IMG/VR virus record: IMGVR_UViG_3300043777_000169
Coordinates: 1-46,098 of that record
DNA from: a virus
Length of the DNA stretch: 46,098 nt
Strand: one strand, 5' to 3'
Under the pieces are notes generated by a model. That model had not been told where the DNA came from and made no database searches. It saw nothing but the letters and a program-made list of their open reading frames with translations. Every line of letters begins with the position of its first letter. Position 1 is the stretch's first letter. This document shows, piece after piece, positions 3,788 to 43,619 of this stretch. Both the position numbers and the translations under genes were made by a program.

Positions 3788-4283
3788 TCACGGTGGAGCG
3801 CGCGACGGGGCCGGCCGCAAGCCGAAGCCGAAGATCGAGCAACGCGCCGACAAGGGCATCGCGACGACCGTGCTCGCGATGGATGGGCCGCCCGAGCACA
3901 AGCGGAAGTGCCGCTGCAAGGTTTGCGAGGGCTCCCCGAAGAACTGCACCTGCGTTGAGCAGTGCGGCGATTGCGACGCGCTTCGCGAAAACTGCGAGTG
4001 CGAAAAGTATCGGCCGATCAAGCTCGCTTGCCGCGCCTGCCAACTGGTCGAGGATCACAAGGTTTGCCGTTGCGAAGTCTGCGGGTGGTGGGAGCAACTG
4101 ATGGCTCGCGACCTGAGGATCACGCATGACACACGGAAATATCTCACGGACCGACGCGACGGAAAGCCGGCGCAAGGCGTCTTCATCGGCGATACGCGCG
4201 AATCGGCAGTGGACGTAGACTTTGGCGACATCCTTATGCCAGCCGCCCCGAATCAGCCTGGAGCGCCTGGTAAACCCAACTGA
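3777..4283 (+). CDS. putative terminase small subunit, cysteine-rich
   Basis: A 168-aa protein whose N-terminus (HGGARDGAGRKPKPK) is the Gly/Arg start often seen in phage small terminase subunits, and which sits directly before the large terminase gene. It would recognise phage DNA and recruit the large subunit. Unusually, residues 45-102 carry 14 cysteines in repeated C-x-C and C-x2-C pairs (C45, C47, C50, C57, C59, C63, C66, C73, C75, C85, C88, C97, C99, C102). This suggests two or more zinc-binding knuckles rather than the usual helix-turn-helix. It overlaps the large-subunit gene by about 60 bp. The small-terminase assignment rests on position and the N-terminal motif. Confidence 0.6.
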   Translation: MGVDHGGARDGAGRKPKPKIEQRADKGIATTVLAMDGPPEHKRKCRCKVCEGSPKNCTCVEQCGDCDALRENCECEKYRPIKLACRACQLVEDHKVCRCEVCGWWEQLMARDLRITHDTRKYLTDRRDGKPAQGVFIGDTRESAVDVDFGDILMPAAPNQPGAPGKPN

Positions 4284-5778
4284 GAGACAACGTGAAGTTC
4301 TCGCAGCGATCGCAGAATTCGACTTCGTCTTGTTTGGCGGAGAAGCCGGCGGCGGCAAGAGCTACATCCTGCGCTGGTGGCTGGTGCTTTACCTGGTCTG
4401 GTGCTTCAAGGTTCTTGGTCTGCGCAACGTTGTCGTTGGCTTGTTCTGCGAAGACTATCCCAACCTGCAGGATCGCCAGGTCTCAAAGATCGAGCACGAG
4501 TTCCCAAAGTGGCTCGGCAGTCTCAGCTTCAAAAAAGTCTGGAACTTCCAGCTTCGTCCTGAGTTCGGCAGCGGCGTCATCGCGCTGCGCAACCTGGACA
4601 AGATGGAGAAATACAAGTCGGCTGAATTTGCGGCCGTCGCGCTCGATGAAGTCACGCTCAATCCGCTGCGAGTATTCAACTGGCTTCGGTTTCGTTTGCG
4701 CTGGCCAGGAATCGAGCGGCCGAAGTTCCTCGGTGGCACCAACCCCGGTGGCGTCGGGCATTCCTGGGTTAAAGCATACTGGCACGATCACAAACTGCCG
4801 CCGGAGCTGCAGCCGATCGCGGAACAGTTTGTCCTCATCAAAGCGCGGTCGGCCGATAACCCTCACCTCCCTACCGGCTACCACGACCGCCTCCTCACTC
4901 TCCCGCCTGACATGGCCCGCATGGTCGGCCGCGGCGACTGGAATGTTTTCACCGGACAATACTTCCCGCAGTTCGAAATCCCCCGCCACGTTCTCAAAGC
5001 GGCAGACGCAGTACACCAGATCAAGCCCTGGCACACGCGCTGGATCTCGGGCGACTGGGGCTATGAGCATCCAGCCTCTTTCCACTGGCACGCGAAGAAC
5101 GAACACAACCGCATCGTCACCTACGACGAGATGTGGGATCGCCGCGTAGGCGAATCAGAATGGGCCGAACGAATTACAGCGCGAGAGAAGCAGTGGAAAG
5201 ACAGATTCGGGACGGGCTATCGTCCACTAACCTCGTTTCCCTTCTCGTGGGATGCCGGCAAGCTCAGCCCGCGCTCGCACCCGAAGTATCCGAAATCGAT
5301 CGTGCAGTTGGTGAGCGATCACCTGGGGGCGGATGTTCCGAAGCCGCATCCAGCGGACTCCACGCCGGGATCGCGGATGTCCGGTTTTCGCCTGATGAGC
5401 CAGCTACTCGACGCGGATTTGTGGGGGATCTCGGATGCCTGCCCTAAATTAATTGAATGTCTGCCAACTCTTATCCGCGATGAAGACGACACCGAAACCC
5501 TGCTCAAAGTTAACTATGCCGAAGGCGACACAATCGGCGATGACCCGGCAGACTCCGCGCGTATGGGATTGCAGCACGAGTTCGGCAGCAGCGTGGTTCC
5601 TGTGAACGTGATGGCCGATCGCAGAGTCGCAGCTTACGCCGAAGCCCGCGGCCAGGAAGTAGAAGACCTGGACATCAACTCCGTCCACATGCTGCACCGC
5701 CAAGCCATGGTGCGAGAGCAACAGATGCGGAAGAAACGCAGGGGCGGATTAGGAAGAATCTGGAGGCCGAGGAGCTAA
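4222..5778 (+). CDS. terL: terminase large subunit
   Basis: The DNA-packaging ATPase and nuclease, about 518 aa. Walker A is GGEAGGGKSY (residues 39-48), Walker B is AVALDEVT with Asp142 and Glu143, and motif III is GGTNPGG (171-177). The nuclease half begins near ISGDWGYEHPAS (Asp278), the first acidic residue of an RNase H-like fold, with further acidic residues downstream (SWDAGKLSP). The TTG at 4222 is the longest start; the conserved part begins around NPTERQREVL, so the true start may be slightly later. It is followed by structural genes at short spacing. Confidence 0.93.
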   Translation: MATSLCQPPRISLERLVNPTERQREVLAAIAEFDFVLFGGEAGGGKSYILRWWLVLYLVWCFKVLGLRNVVVGLFCEDYPNLQDRQVSKIEHEFPKWLGSLSFKKVWNFQLRPEFGSGVIALRNLDKMEKYKSAEFAAVALDEVTLNPLRVFNWLRFRLRWPGIERPKFLGGTNPGGVGHSWVKAYWHDHKLPPELQPIAEQFVLIKARSADNPHLPTGYHDRLLTLPPDMARMVGRGDWNVFTGQYFPQFEIPRHVLKAADAVHQIKPWHTRWISGDWGYEHPASFHWHAKNEHNRIVTYDEMWDRRVGESEWAERITAREKQWKDRFGTGYRPLTSFPFSWDAGKLSPRSHPKYPKSIVQLVSDHLGADVPKPHPADSTPGSRMSGFRLMSQLLDADLWGISDACPKLIECLPTLIRDEDDTETLLKVNYAEGDTIGDDPADSARMGLQHEFGSSVVPVNVMADRRVAAYAEARGQEVEDLDINSVHMLHRQAMVREQQMRKKRRGGLGRIWRPRS

Positions 5779-14225: not shown

Positions 14226-15479
14226 ATGCCAGCACAAAATCTAAATTCAGTTGCACTGCAACTAGAAAAGGTGCGGAAGACGGTGCCGACCGCCTACGAG
14301 CAGGAAGTGATTCTGCTCGATCTGATCGACAAGCGCGGCGACGTGGTCGACGCCTCTACCCGCAACATTCGCCTGCCGCAGCTTATCCGGCCGGGCGGGA
14401 AATTCAGCCAAGGAACCGCGGACTTCGACGATATGGGGCGCGGCTCTGGATCGACCTGGGATGTGGGGACGCTTTCCACTCTGCATTTCCGGTTTGCCTT
14501 TGAAATCTCAAAGCTCGCCGAGTACGCCTCGAAGGGCAACGACAAGGCGGTTGAAGATGTGGCGGTGCGCGAAGTCGAGGAAGCGCTCAAGATGTTCAAG
14601 CGCGCTCTCGATTGCGTCTACAACACCAACGGGACCGGGCAGCTCGACACCATTCAGTCGATCTCTGGGACTGTCCTCACCGTCACCAACCCCAACCTGT
14701 TCTATTTCAACCAGGACATCCAGATCTATCCTTCTGGCCTGGCTTCGGCGTCGCGCGGTCTGGCGACAGTAGTAGCAGTCGATCCGCTCCTCAAGACGAT
14801 CACCCTGAACGCTCTGCCGGCCGGAACCTCGGCGACGGACGCTCTGGTAATCAATATCTCCCAGGGCGCGGGCGGAGCAAACCCGGTCTCGCTCGAAGGG
14901 CTGCTCTACAACCACGTGGATTCGCAGTCGGGCACCTGGAACAACCTGGCGCGCTCGACCTACCCAGAAGCCCTGAAAACGCCGCACGTCGCAGCGGGTG
15001 GGGTCACGATCACCCCGGCACTGCGCCGTCTCGGAGAAAACAAGCTCCGCAGGGTGCTCGGTGTGAATTTCGAAGAGCCGATGATGGCCTACATGAACGT
15101 AGACCAGGAAGCGGCCTGGGAAAACGCCGGAATCACCGTAACCACGATCATCCAGAACCAGCTAAAGGGTGACGAGTCGCAGGACATGTTGAAGCGGAAG
15201 CCGCCGGGAACCTTCGGTGGAATTCCGATCAAAACCTCGATCCACGCCACCATCCAGCGCATTGACGTGATCCTGCTCAAGCACTGGGGCCGGGGCATCA
15301 CGAAAGAAATCGACATGTTCGAACTGGGAGGCCAGACTACCTATCAGGTATACGGCGCTTCCGGCGGTCTCGAAGCTGGCTATCTGCAGTACTTCGACAC
15401 CGTGTTCAATGTGTTCATGGATCAGCCCAGGTATGGAATTTTCTGGGACGGTCTGGCGCTTCCGGTTGGCGGCTACTAA
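14226..15479 (+). CDS. major capsid protein, 417 aa
   Basis: The coat protein that builds the head. It lies directly after the scaffold and has an ATG start with a GGAG site 8 nt upstream. It opens with an N-terminal helix (VALQLEKVRKTVPTAYEQEV), then a strand-rich core. An inserted small beta domain spans about residues 140-215 (ISGTVLTVTNPNLFYFNQDI). A typical capsid C-terminal region follows (VLGVNFEEPMMAYMNVDQEA, RYGIFWDGLALPVGG). The 107-bp gap before it probably holds the leader that lets this gene be highly expressed. Length and context fit a HK97-fold coat protein. Confidence 0.88.
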   Translation: MPAQNLNSVALQLEKVRKTVPTAYEQEVILLDLIDKRGDVVDASTRNIRLPQLIRPGGKFSQGTADFDDMGRGSGSTWDVGTLSTLHFRFAFEISKLAEYASKGNDKAVEDVAVREVEEALKMFKRALDCVYNTNGTGQLDTIQSISGTVLTVTNPNLFYFNQDIQIYPSGLASASRGLATVVAVDPLLKTITLNALPAGTSATDALVINISQGAGGANPVSLEGLLYNHVDSQSGTWNNLARSTYPEALKTPHVAAGGVTITPALRRLGENKLRRVLGVNFEEPMMAYMNVDQEAAWENAGITVTTIIQNQLKGDESQDMLKRKPPGTFGGIPIKTSIHATIQRIDVILLKHWGRGITKEIDMFELGGQTTYQVYGASGGLEAGYLQYFDTVFNVFMDQPRYGIFWDGLALPVGGY

Positions 15480-25004: not shown

Positions 25005-25979
25005 ATGCCCGTCGATCCCACAACTGATCCGGATTTCATGAAGGCCCCGCCTCATGAACAGATGGCCTATCTCACGCAAACGGATTCGGACTTTGCGAAG
25101 GCTAGCCCGCAAGACCAGTTGGGCTACCTGGCGCATATTCACGGATTCAAGGGAGAGATGGCAGGACCAGCAGGGCCGAGCGCCATTGCCGGAACTGCGC
25201 AGCCGGGCAAGACCTCACCAGCAGCGGCGAGAACGATGCACCCCGTAGATATAACTGGCGAACAGCAAACGCCAGAATCCGCCACGGCTGGATTGCCCGG
25301 ATACACCGGATTTCGGCCGGTAAAGGATCGAGATTTAATTCCCGGTGCAATTGCCGGAGGAGCTGCGGCAGCCTACGCAGCACCCGTGGTGGCCGCCCCA
25401 ATAGTGCGAGCTGGCGCGAAGTACGCTCAAGAGCATCCCTACAAAACGATGGCCGCGCTTGAGCTTGCGAAACAAATACCCGGCGTCGGACCTTACGTGA
25501 GCAAGATCCCGACGTGGCTCCCCTTGTTAGCTGGAGGGCACGAAGAAGCCGAGCCGGAACCAAATGTCCCCGCACCGCCCTTGCGCTGGAGTCCGCGATC
25601 CGCGCCGGAGGAGCCAGTCACGAACACGCCCGCACCTCCGCTGCGATGGAGTCCGCGATCTATACCCGAAGAGCCCGTCACCAACACGCCGCCCCCGCCC
25701 TTGCGCTGGAGCGGGCGCGTAGCGACACCAGCAGAAGAGGCCGATCCGACTCCAGCGACGTCGGCACAGCCGCCGGTAATCTCTGGCGATCCCCTGGCCG
25801 GACGCCTGTCCAGTTTGGTAGACAAAATCAAAACCGAAGGCCACGGCCACGAAACTCCCGAACCGGAAGAAGCTACTCCCCAGACCACAAATCTGAATGA
25901 AGACCTGACGCCCGCGCTGAAAGCCAGTCTCCGCAGGGTGCGGGCCGCGAAAGCCGCGCGCAGCGGCAAGTCGAACTAA
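25005..25979 (+). CDS. putative virion protein with 20-residue tandem repeats, 324 aa
   Basis: A 324-aa protein. The N-terminal part has two related segments (DFMKAPPHEQMAYLT and DFAKASPQDQLGYLA). A Gly/Ala-rich hydrophobic stretch lies near 110-135 (GAIAGGAAAAYAAPVVAAPI) and may insert into membrane. Residues about 187-242 hold three tandem copies of N-x-PAPPLRWSPRS-x-PEEPV. The end is a basic helix (ALKASLRRVRAAKAARSGK). The membrane-active-looking stretch fits an ejection protein, but this is an inference. Confidence 0.6.
   Translation: MPVDPTTDPDFMKAPPHEQMAYLTQTDSDFAKASPQDQLGYLAHIHGFKGEMAGPAGPSAIAGTAQPGKTSPAAARTMHPVDITGEQQTPESATAGLPGYTGFRPVKDRDLIPGAIAGGAAAAYAAPVVAAPIVRAGAKYAQEHPYKTMAALELAKQIPGVGPYVSKIPTWLPLLAGGHEEAEPEPNVPAPPLRWSPRSAPEEPVTNTPAPPLRWSPRSIPEEPVTNTPPPPLRWSGRVATPAEEADPTPATSAQPPVISGDPLAGRLSSLVDKIKTEGHGHETPEPEEATPQTTNLNEDLTPALKASLRRVRAAKAARSGKSN
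25563..25730 (+). repeat. 60-bp in-frame tandem repeat, 2.8 copies
   Basis: Units start at 25563, 25623 and 25683. Each encodes about 20 residues around PPLRWSPRS. The copies differ mainly by synonymous changes and a few substitutions (APEE, IPEE), so the duplication is not very recent. The last copy decays after LRWSGR. Confidence 0.85.
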
Positions 25980-38466: not shown

Positions 38467-38856
38467 TTAGCTCGCAGCTTTGAGCGCTTTGGCTGGAGAA
38501 ATATATTCCGGCTCGGGCAGTGCGGCGTTGAACTCGTAATCCGACACCTGGCCCTCGCGCTCGATGATCAGCTCAAACATTTCCTGGAACGCGGCGTTCA
38601 CTTCGGGGCGCTGCGTTCCGGTTAATTTGCTGATCATCTGGAAAGCGGCGAAGTTGAAAAAATCGGGCTCGGGTGGGCCGGGGCGGATCGCGAGCACCAT
38701 CGTGCACGACGGGCAGATGTAAATCACCGGAGCCGAGGCCTTCCTTCGCGGCTTCATCCCGGCAGTCTGGCAGAACATGAACACGGCCAGGGCTTTGTCG
38801 TTTGACTCAATCATCGAGCCACAGCGGCGGCAGGTGGAGCGTTCCCGGTTTGGCAT
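38467..38856 (-). CDS. leftward zinc-ribbon protein, possible regulator, 129 aa
   Basis: A 129-aa protein on the minus strand, isolated among rightward genes. The N-terminal part has STCRRCGSMIESNDKAL and YICPSCTMV, two C-x2-C pairs about 35 residues apart. The remainder is helical (PDFFNFAAFQMISKLTGTQR, AAFQEMFELIIEREGQ). The start ATG (856 side) has a TAGGGGG site and lies 16 nt after a 24-bp perfect palindrome, so its expression is probably operator-controlled. Whether this protein is the repressor is unknown. Confidence 0.7.
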   Translation of the reverse strand: MPNRERSTCRRCGSMIESNDKALAVFMFCQTAGMKPRRKASAPVIYICPSCTMVLAIRPGPPEPDFFNFAAFQMISKLTGTQRPEVNAAFQEMFELIIEREGQVSDYEFNAALPEPEYISPAKALKAAS

Positions 38857-38872
38857 GAAACCCCCTACAGTT

Positions 38873-38920
38873 TCGTGCTAGCACGTGCTAGCACGATTCC
38901 CAGTGTCGCACTGGTGTCAA
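38873..38920 (-). promoter_or_regulatory. leftward promoter with 24-bp perfect palindrome
   Basis: A perfect 24-bp palindrome (38873-38896) is made of two adjacent copies of the self-complementary GTGCTAGCAC with flanking C/G and T/A. Next to it is a second dyad, CCAGTG-TCG-CACTGG (38900-38914), and a perfect minus-strand TTGACA at 38920-38915. A -10 box 17 bp on would fall on the edge of the palindrome (ATCGTG, poor). This fits a repressor site covering the promoter of the zinc-ribbon gene at 38856. Confidence 0.6.
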
Positions 38921-39193: not shown

Positions 39194-39555
39194 ATGAGAG
39201 AACCTAACCGCTACCCGGGCGCCGACTGCGAAAAAACGCAAGCGCCGATCGATGACCGCGACTTTCGCCTGGTTCAAGAGCGCGAAAAACGTTACGCTGA
39301 TTGCGGCACCGCAGCTCAGACCGCCCGCCCGATGTCGAGCGAAGAGATCGTTGCCGAATTTTTCAAGTACCCGCGCCGAACGATTTCACGATTCCGAAGT
39401 ACGCCGCAATCAACCAGGCCGCGAAGAATTTCGCCGAAGTTGTCCTGGCGAACTGCCCGAACAGAGCTGACCGCACCGCCGCGATCCGCCTGATTCGAGA
39501 TGCGCGCATGACGGCCAACGCCGCGATCGCGCTGAATGGACTGTCGCTGTACTGA
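39194..39555 (+). CDS. Acb2/Tad1-hairpin-type protein split by a -1 frameshift
   Basis: Two overlapping frames join into one sensible protein of about 120 aa. Frame one, from ATG 39194 (or 39332, MSSEEIVAEFFKYP), is good coding to about 39364 and then becomes Arg/Ser/Thr-rich. The -1 frame carries the conserved end PNDFTIPKYAAINQAAKNFA, a Cys-Pro, then RMTANAAIALNG, but has no ATG or GTG start. The switch lies at A-TTT-TTC (39358-39364). The C-terminal helical hairpin with ANAAIA matches phage proteins that soak up signalling nucleotides of CBASS or Thoeris defence. The frameshift could be programmed, a mutation or a sequence error. Confidence 0.55.
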
Positions 39556-39975: not shown

Positions 39976-40310
39976 CTCCGCCCGTCTTTTCCCGCCTGCA
40001 GTTTCCCAGATTTCTCCGGTTCTCTGAGTTGGACCTCGGCTTGCTTCGCCGCTTCGACAGGCGGATTTTGTTGTTGTTGACTTTCAAAAGGGGCGCGCGG
40101 TTTTGGCGCGCACCACATCGGTTTTGACGTTGCCCTTGTGGTCAGGTTTTGTGGTTGTATCTTAGGTTTTGTTGTGGTGGTAGGTTTTGTGGTGGTTGTT
40201 GTGGTGGTGGGCTTTCGCTTTTGTGGTGGTTGCGCGCGCCTCGACTTTCGCCTTTTGGAACCAGCGGAGGCAACATTTCCACAGGCGAAACGCGAGTAGC
40301 CTTTGCGCAT
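39963..40310 (-). CDS. possible leftward Thr/Lys/Gln-rich protein, 115 aa
   Basis: A leftward frame from ATG 40310 to 39963. It has a basic start, then a Thr/Lys/Pro tract (KPTTTTTTTKPTTTTKPK) and a natural-looking charged end (EAAKQAEVQLREPEKSGKLQ). There is no ribosome site, and it faces the flow of all neighbours. It may be real or only the mirror of a G/T-rich DNA tract. Confidence 0.25.
   Translation of the reverse strand: MRKGYSRFACGNVASAGSKRRKSRRAQPPQKRKPTTTTTTTKPTTTTKPKIQPQNLTTRATSKPMWCAPKPRAPFESQQQQNPPVEAAKQAEVQLREPEKSGKLQAGKDGRSQSR
39976..40308 (+). other. 333-bp gap with G/T-only tract
   Basis: No convincing rightward gene. From about 40133 to 40235 the plus strand is almost free of A and C and repeats the theme GGTTTTGTGGTGGTTG several times. 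This is extreme strand asymmetry, as found at replication starts, G-quadruplex-forming DNA or simple-sequence protein genes. Flanking hairpin-like GGCGCGCGGTTTTGGCGCGC lies near 40094. Confidence 0.5.
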
Positions 40311-42580: not shown

Positions 42581-42816
42581 AGAAGCGGCCCTTCAATTTC
42601 GAGTGGACGTTCTCGTCGCGAGTGCGCGAACGGAAATGCGTGAGCTGCTCGACGCTCACGCCGGGATTTCTCACCCTGGCCAACGGCATTCGTAAGCCAC
42701 TTTGCTCAACCTGTTTTTTGTCTCAAATGAAACCTTCCGCGCTATCGGCCCGGAAGAAGCCCACGTCTGCGCCTCCGTGCGAGGCCGCGAGATCGGAGCA
42801 ACTTCGCCTATGTTGA
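42577..42816 (+). CDS. small zinc-ribbon protein, 79 aa
   Basis: From ATG 42577 in an ATGA overlap. A basic start ([20 protein letters not shown]) leads into [12 protein letters not shown] and [10 protein letters not shown], two C-x2-C pairs in a short ribbon, followed by a Ser/Pro/Ala tail. Overlaps the next gene by 7 bp. Unknown role. Confidence 0.65.
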
Positions 42817-43619
42817 CCTTCCATGGAAAGCAGCAACTCAAAGACGAGCGCATCGCTCAGGTGCGCGCGCATCGCCTGGCCGATCAACTGGTGAAGGGCC
42901 AGTACTGGCAAGACGGCAAAGGCTGCGCTGTCGGTTGCACCATTCACAGCAGCGATCACCGGGCCTACGAGACCGAACTCGGGATCCCGGTCGAGTTGGC
43001 CTATCTCGAAGACAACATCTTCGAGAACCTCTCGAACGGCAAAGCCATGATGTGGCCTGAACGTTTTCTGCAGGCGATCCCGGTGGGCGTCGACCTGCGT
43101 GCGACGCACATTAACAAACGCCTGGTGCTCGCCTGGCTCACCGACGAGACGCGAGGCCTGGTGCCGCGCATTCGAAACGAAGAGACGAAGAAGTTGGCGC
43201 TCGAGCTCGTCGATTTTTTGAAACAAGGGATAGCTGAGCCGTCGCCAACGCTTCCGCCAGCCCTTCTTAGGGATCTCGCCGATCGCGCCTATCTCGCCGA
43301 TCTCGCCTATCGCGCCTATCTCGCCGATCTCGCCTATCGCGCCTATCTCGCCGATCTCGCCGATCTCGCCTATCGCGCCGATCTCGCCGATCTCGCCTAT
43401 CTCGCCTATCGCGCCGATCTCGCCTATCGCGCCGATCTCGCCGATCTCGCCGATCTCGCCTATCGCGCCGATCTCGCCGATCTCGCCTATCTCGCCTATC
43501 GCGCCGATCGCGCCGATCTCGCCTATCGCGCCTATCTCGCCGAAATATTTTTGGAAGTGCTCGCCGCTAGCGCGCCGAGCACTTCCCCGTCGCCGGCAGC
43601 AACGCGAGGAGCCAAGTGA
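42810..43619 (+). CDS. phage protein with tripeptide-repeat tail, 269 aa
   Basis: ATG 42810 begins [20 protein letters not shown]. The first 150 residues match a recurrent phage protein type recognised by [20 protein letters not shown] and a following [14 protein letters not shown]. Members often end in long simple repeats of unknown purpose (for example WSAA-type). Here residues 155-244 are 30 tripeptides of the form (D or Y)(L or R)A, then a short helix and a Ser/Pro/Ala end. The Cys/His cluster in [13 protein letters not shown] may bind metal. Function of the family is unknown. The repeat may act as a length-variable spacer. Confidence 0.75.
43272..43541 (+). repeat. 30 x 9-bp coding minisatellite
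   Basis: Thirty tandem units of (G/T)AT-C(T/G)C-GCC without a single other change. Only two positions vary, giving DLA (14), YRA (8), YLA (6) and DRA (2). Units 10-16 and 20-26 are identical in order, a 63-bp copy shifted by 90 bp. Total absence of synonymous change points to recent or continuing expansion. Confidence 0.95.

Follow-up and report, generated by a model that had tools for sequence, protein, structure and literature searches.

A phage gene of the Acb2/Tad1-hairpin family that very probably lost one base after a conserved tyrosine codon

Background

Acb2 forms hexamers, which bind cyclic nucleotides and block CBASS. In Acb2 of phage T4, residue Y8 is needed for the binding of cyclic dinucleotides, and T68 and F82 have been linked to ligand binding (PMC12657218, PMC12657230). 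Loss of the gene has also been described. T4 escapers from Panoptes carry frameshifts, stops and deletions in acb2, and acb2 of phage PaMx41 has a natural premature stop (PMC12657218). Three T4-like phages that resist Panoptes naturally were found to have loss-of-function mutations in acb1 or acb2 (PMC12657230).

The window, i.e. the whole stretch of 46,098 nucleotides analysed here (IMG/VR virus record IMGVR_UViG_3300043777_000169), harbours two overlapping frames at positions 39194-39555, according to its open reading frames. An earlier note on this DNA described them as an Acb2/Tad1-like gene read by a -1 frameshift, possibly a programmed one. Comparison with related sequences retains the family and points to another cause for the two frames: the locus is very probably a single accessory phage gene from the Acb2/Tad1-hairpin family (PF24729) which has lost one base after a conserved Tyr codon. 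The relatives compared are cited by L numbers.

Gene neighbourhood and host

The hairpin gene is situated among the small genes of a tailed dsDNA phage, which possesses a terminase gene (4222-5778) and a capsid gene (14226-15479). The features of the locus and its surroundings are the following.

38467..38856, minus strand: divergent zinc-ribbon-like gene, adjoining the hairpin gene in 14 of the 15 relatives tested
38875..38894, plus strand: perfect 10-bp palindrome in tandem, GTGCTAGCACGTGCTAGCAC, lying in the gap between the divergent genes, a probable operator
39194..39370, plus strand: first part of the Acb2/Tad1-hairpin-like gene (ATG frame), with variable N-terminal arm, EKTQAP motif and SSEEIVAEFFKY, its last residue being the conserved Tyr
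39359..39364, plus strand: proposed slip site TTT-TTC, plain Phe-Phe codons that L003 and L005 decode in frame with no slip
39371..39372, plus strand: true frame break, two bases against one full codon (usually His) in relatives
39373..39555, plus strand: second part (-1 frame), helical hairpin APNDFTIPKY...ARMTANAAIALNGLSLY and stop, matching Pfam PF24729
39557..39880, plus strand: next gene, function unassigned, with homologues of about 30% identity in L006, L025 and L070

The wider window contains other features. At 43272-43543 the 9-bp unit GATCTCGCC is repeated in tandem about 30 times, within the stretch of an ORF at 42702-43619, and a 60-bp direct repeat in 2.4 copies is found at 25569-25711, within the stretch of an ORF at 25005-25979. 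The phage genome also encodes an FkbM-type methyltransferase at 979-1767 (PF05050, E 5.2e-16). The region at 40060-40230, between genes, is rich in TTTTGTGGTGG-like GT repeats and has no Rfam match; Rfam and ARAGORN searches across the window found nothing.

One of the hairpin-only relatives belongs to an Acidobacteriales genome bin and another to a Tunturiibacter phage, a hint that the hosts are Acidobacteriota. Of 23 records whose capsid gene is closely related, only two contained the hairpin gene, although many of the records are fragments. The gene is thus accessory and its loss should be tolerated.

Frames of the locus and family assignment

The ATG frame starts at 39194 and reads MREPNRYPGADCEKTQAP...SSEEIVAEFFKY, after which no resemblance is left. 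Its product is also written MREPNRYPGADCEKTQAP...RPMSSEEIVAEFFKY, followed by unrelated residues until a stop at 39491-39493. The -1 frame reads APNDFTIPKYAAINQAAKNFAEVV...ARMTANAAIALNGLSLY and stops at 39553-39555, the hairpin reading being given as APNDFTIPKYAAINQAAKNFAEVVLANCPNRADRTAAIRLIRDARMTANAAIALNGLSLY. The absence of ATG and GTG starts from the hairpin frame, reported previously, was seen here as well, and the frame additionally has one TTG, at 39301.

The hairpin frame matched Pfam PF24729 (Acb2_Tad1_hairpin) with 30.1 bits (E 5.5e-7), above the curated cut-off of 27 bits, and so possesses the Acb2/Tad1 hairpin profile match whose absence, by the earlier note, would have counted against the proposal. 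Intact relatives score 38-46 bits against the same profile (maximum 45.8). The ATG frame by itself matched no Pfam profile. The assignment to the Acb2/Tad1 family therefore stands, with T4 Vs.4/Acb2 as the best, though weak, structural match.

Relatives of the hairpin gene

Searching IMG/VR with the joined reading of both frames yielded seven relatives, six of them 63-75% identical, and a profile search brought the number to about twenty. Further relatives were drawn from phage and genome collections and through a DNA pattern search. The conserved region, comprising the upstream helix, the Tyr and the ANAAIA end, was found in a single open frame in 24 of the 25 relatives scanned. The twenty-fifth, phage Jenst, was not matched by the text pattern, yet the region is annotated there as one gene and matches PF24729 in full.

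In long relatives there is an N-terminal arm, roughly 40 residues long and variable, that contains an EKTQAP motif. The motif in its EKTQ(A/G) form, together with a linker of variable length, was found in L003, L004, L005, L006, L008, L015, L017, L019, L022, L023, L024 and L070. It is missing from the hairpin-only relatives of about 75 aa (L027-L033). The Tyr of the FxYHxP region is invariant across the 19 aligned relatives. The comparison adds a set of Acb2-hairpin genes from uncultured soil phages, many of which have the variable arm at the N-terminus and which adjoin a conserved zinc-ribbon gene.

Position of the frame break

The earlier note placed the change of frame at A-TTT-TTC and considered the ATG frame poor after 39364. 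This is incorrect: the codons AAG TAC (39365-39370) still match the K-Y conserved in relatives. Since this match persists in the first frame and homology in the -1 frame resumes at 39373, the break is placed at 39371-39372, about 8 bases downstream of TTT-TTC. The codon facing these two bases is mostly His in relatives, and Gln in L015 and Leu in L024. In the DNA alignment with relatives, the window shows one gap, of one base, at the junction, and the codons on either side are conserved. L003 and L005 carry the identical stretch AATTTTTCAAGTACC, which they decode as Glu-Phe-Phe-Lys-Tyr and onward. A slip at TTT-TTC would yield FFQVPAPN, compared with FFKYHAPN in L005.

Against L005, the stretch just before the break has 12 identical codons, one synonymous and two non-synonymous, and the hairpin part has 42 identical, 15 synonymous and four non-synonymous. 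As the codon differences are mostly synonymous, both halves appear to form one protein that was under purifying selection until very recently or still is.

The open frames of relatives were also scanned against the window, which revealed no second convincing break of frame across the approximately 21 kb conserved in them. Apparent breaks at about 3.4 and 7.25 kb were discarded after alignment, which placed the relative's match in a frame overlapping the real gene. Another, at about 15.5 kb, was judged from coordinates only: its first match and the capsid gene are in different frames, and it too looks like a match in a frame overlapping a real gene.

Structure and predicted function of the intact family

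The predicted model of the intact relative L007 consists of a short helix (residues 42-49) and two long helices (60-80 and 87-106). It has the architecture of Acb2, in which two long antiparallel helices follow a short N-terminal one, with a weak match in the PDB. T4 Vs.4 with cGAMP was its top PDB match by both Foldseek (E 1.9) and VIA-align (Z 6.1 over 66 residues, where unrelated helical rows reach 5.9). At the sequence level, a 19-sequence profile found only T4 Vs.4 among PDB sequences, with an E value of 1.1 that is not significant alone; PDB sequence searches with a single protein and with a seven-sequence profile found nothing relevant. A single-pair comparison with T4 Vs.4 by hhalign gave E 0.00046 at a probability of only 33%.

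The intact family is probably an Acb2-type nucleotide sponge, which is the best guess because fold and profile point to Vs.4 and because Y8 aligns with the invariant Tyr, although T68 and F82 align with other residues. With a short helix and a helical hairpin, the intact relatives would oligomerise and hold cyclic nucleotides or related signals, and their capture would block CBASS- or Thoeris-type signalling. Translation of the window copy from 39194 would give about 59 correct residues followed by out-of-frame residues up to the stop. The entire helical hairpin would be lost and no sponge would be made, so that the window copy is presumably inactive. The break may also weaken translation of the next gene, because its ATG lies one base after the hairpin-frame stop (TGAAATG).

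Probable palindromic operators beside the gene

In the window the palindrome unit GTGCTAGCAC occurs twice. Relatives carry GTTTGTTAACAAAC, TTGGTACCAA, GTTAATTAAC, GTTGTACAAC or GTTTTGGAAAC repeats at the same spot, just upstream of the divergent zinc-ribbon gene. The loci concerned are the window and L003, L004, L005, L006, L007, L008, L017, L019, L022, L023, L024, L025, L061 and L070. A perfect palindrome of at least 10 bp was present in 13 of 15 stretches, compared with 1.0 expected by shuffling. The zinc-ribbon proteins of L003, L005 and L007 are 68-70% identical, yet their palindromes differ. These palindromes look like putative operators whose specificity diversifies fast between related phages, as in phage immunity systems; the suspicion arises because such similar zinc-ribbon proteins are accompanied by different palindromes. 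Fast-changing operators of this kind may exceed the hairpin gene in interest.

Origin of the two frames

The earlier note had proposed a -1 ribosomal frameshift at A-TTT-TTC, through which, if it were programmed, one gene would give two products. The frames do overlap, and coding is conserved on both sides. Nevertheless, the identical site is decoded in frame in L003 and L005, the first-frame homology extends two codons beyond it, and A TTT TTC is not of the X XXY YYZ form. The 70 bases downstream are predicted to form RNA less stable than shuffled sequences (z +0.95), as 169 of the 200 shuffles fold at least as well. The comparison with homologues suggested in that note is likewise contrary to it, with one uninterrupted frame in all 24 relatives checked and the two-frame layout in none. 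A single intact frame with one base more or fewer, which the note itself had named, for raw reads, as evidence against its reading, is what the relatives have. A programmed frameshift is consequently extremely improbable, and a false lead, that of a frameshift-controlled sponge gene, is removed. A genuine sequence with an unusual decoding confined to this one phage keeps a small probability. Two separate small genes, the second starting from TTG 39301 and producing the hairpin alone, are as improbable as the programmed frameshift. This TTG does open the hairpin frame, and hairpin-only relatives exist. However, between 39301 and the break the product would consist of conserved upstream codons read out of frame, and it would not possess the FxYH start that the short relatives keep; the TTG start was rejected on these grounds.

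Under the preferred explanation, the loss of one base, a real recent mutation and an assembly error are about equally likely. An error of sequencing or assembly in the metagenome contig, which would leave the phage with an intact gene for an ordinary Acb2-like protein, is given an even chance. It is favoured by the purifying selection evident in both halves and by the intactness of every relative, and no near-identical contig backs the short form: exact DNA searches of viral and genome contig collections found no second copy of the window phage at the junction. On the other hand, the break does not fall in a long homopolymer, and no further convincing break came to light in the conserved stretch of about 21 kb, so that errors are not widespread in the assembly. 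A genuine mutation that recently abolished the gene's function in the phage population, and that may have been selected via decoy-type immunity such as Panoptes, comes near to an even chance. It is in agreement with the accessory status of the gene in this phage group and with the documented losses of acb2 in T4 escapers and PaMx41 (PMC12657218) and of acb1 or acb2 in T4-like phages resistant to Panoptes (PMC12657230), a selective cause being no more than a possibility. A real break would add another case to the natural losses of sponge genes and bear on how frequently phages surrender sponges under decoy-type immunity. That this soil phage shed an Acb2-like sponge under selection, escaping a host system triggered by sponge proteins, is by analogy conceivable and rather unlikely; if true, it would be the natural counterpart of the laboratory Panoptes escapers.

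Comparison with known systems

T4 Vs.4 (Acb2, PDB 7uq2) belongs to the same Pfam family, PF24729. Similar to the intact family, it has a long helical hairpin after a first helix that is short. HMMER and hhalign align it with the family, and its Y8 falls on the invariant Tyr. T68 of T4 Vs.4 faces Arg and F82 faces Ala in the family, in a part of the alignment, the hairpin, where its reading is weak. The hairpin loop is longer in T4 Vs.4 than in the window family, whereas the long relatives bear the variable EKTQAP arm described above, and the window copy is broken.

Tad1 of a Clostridium botulinum prophage (PDB 7uaw) has the hairpin domain in common by Pfam definition and is a weak structural match over the hairpin (Z 3.4). 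Tad1 possesses an N-terminal antiparallel beta-sheet before the hairpin; for the family, no strand is predicted in residues 1-41 of the L007 model, where confidence is low. The closest match in the phage collection is gp101 of the Tunturiibacter phage Tunturi_1, which is 50% identical over the hairpin, lies in one frame and matches PF24729. However, gp101 is a hairpin-only protein of about 71 aa and has no N-terminal arm.

Similar to the window copy, acb2 of PaMx41 is an Acb2 gene naturally inactivated in a phage. In PaMx41, the inactivation is due to a stop codon instead of a one-base deletion, and it is confirmed in an isolate.
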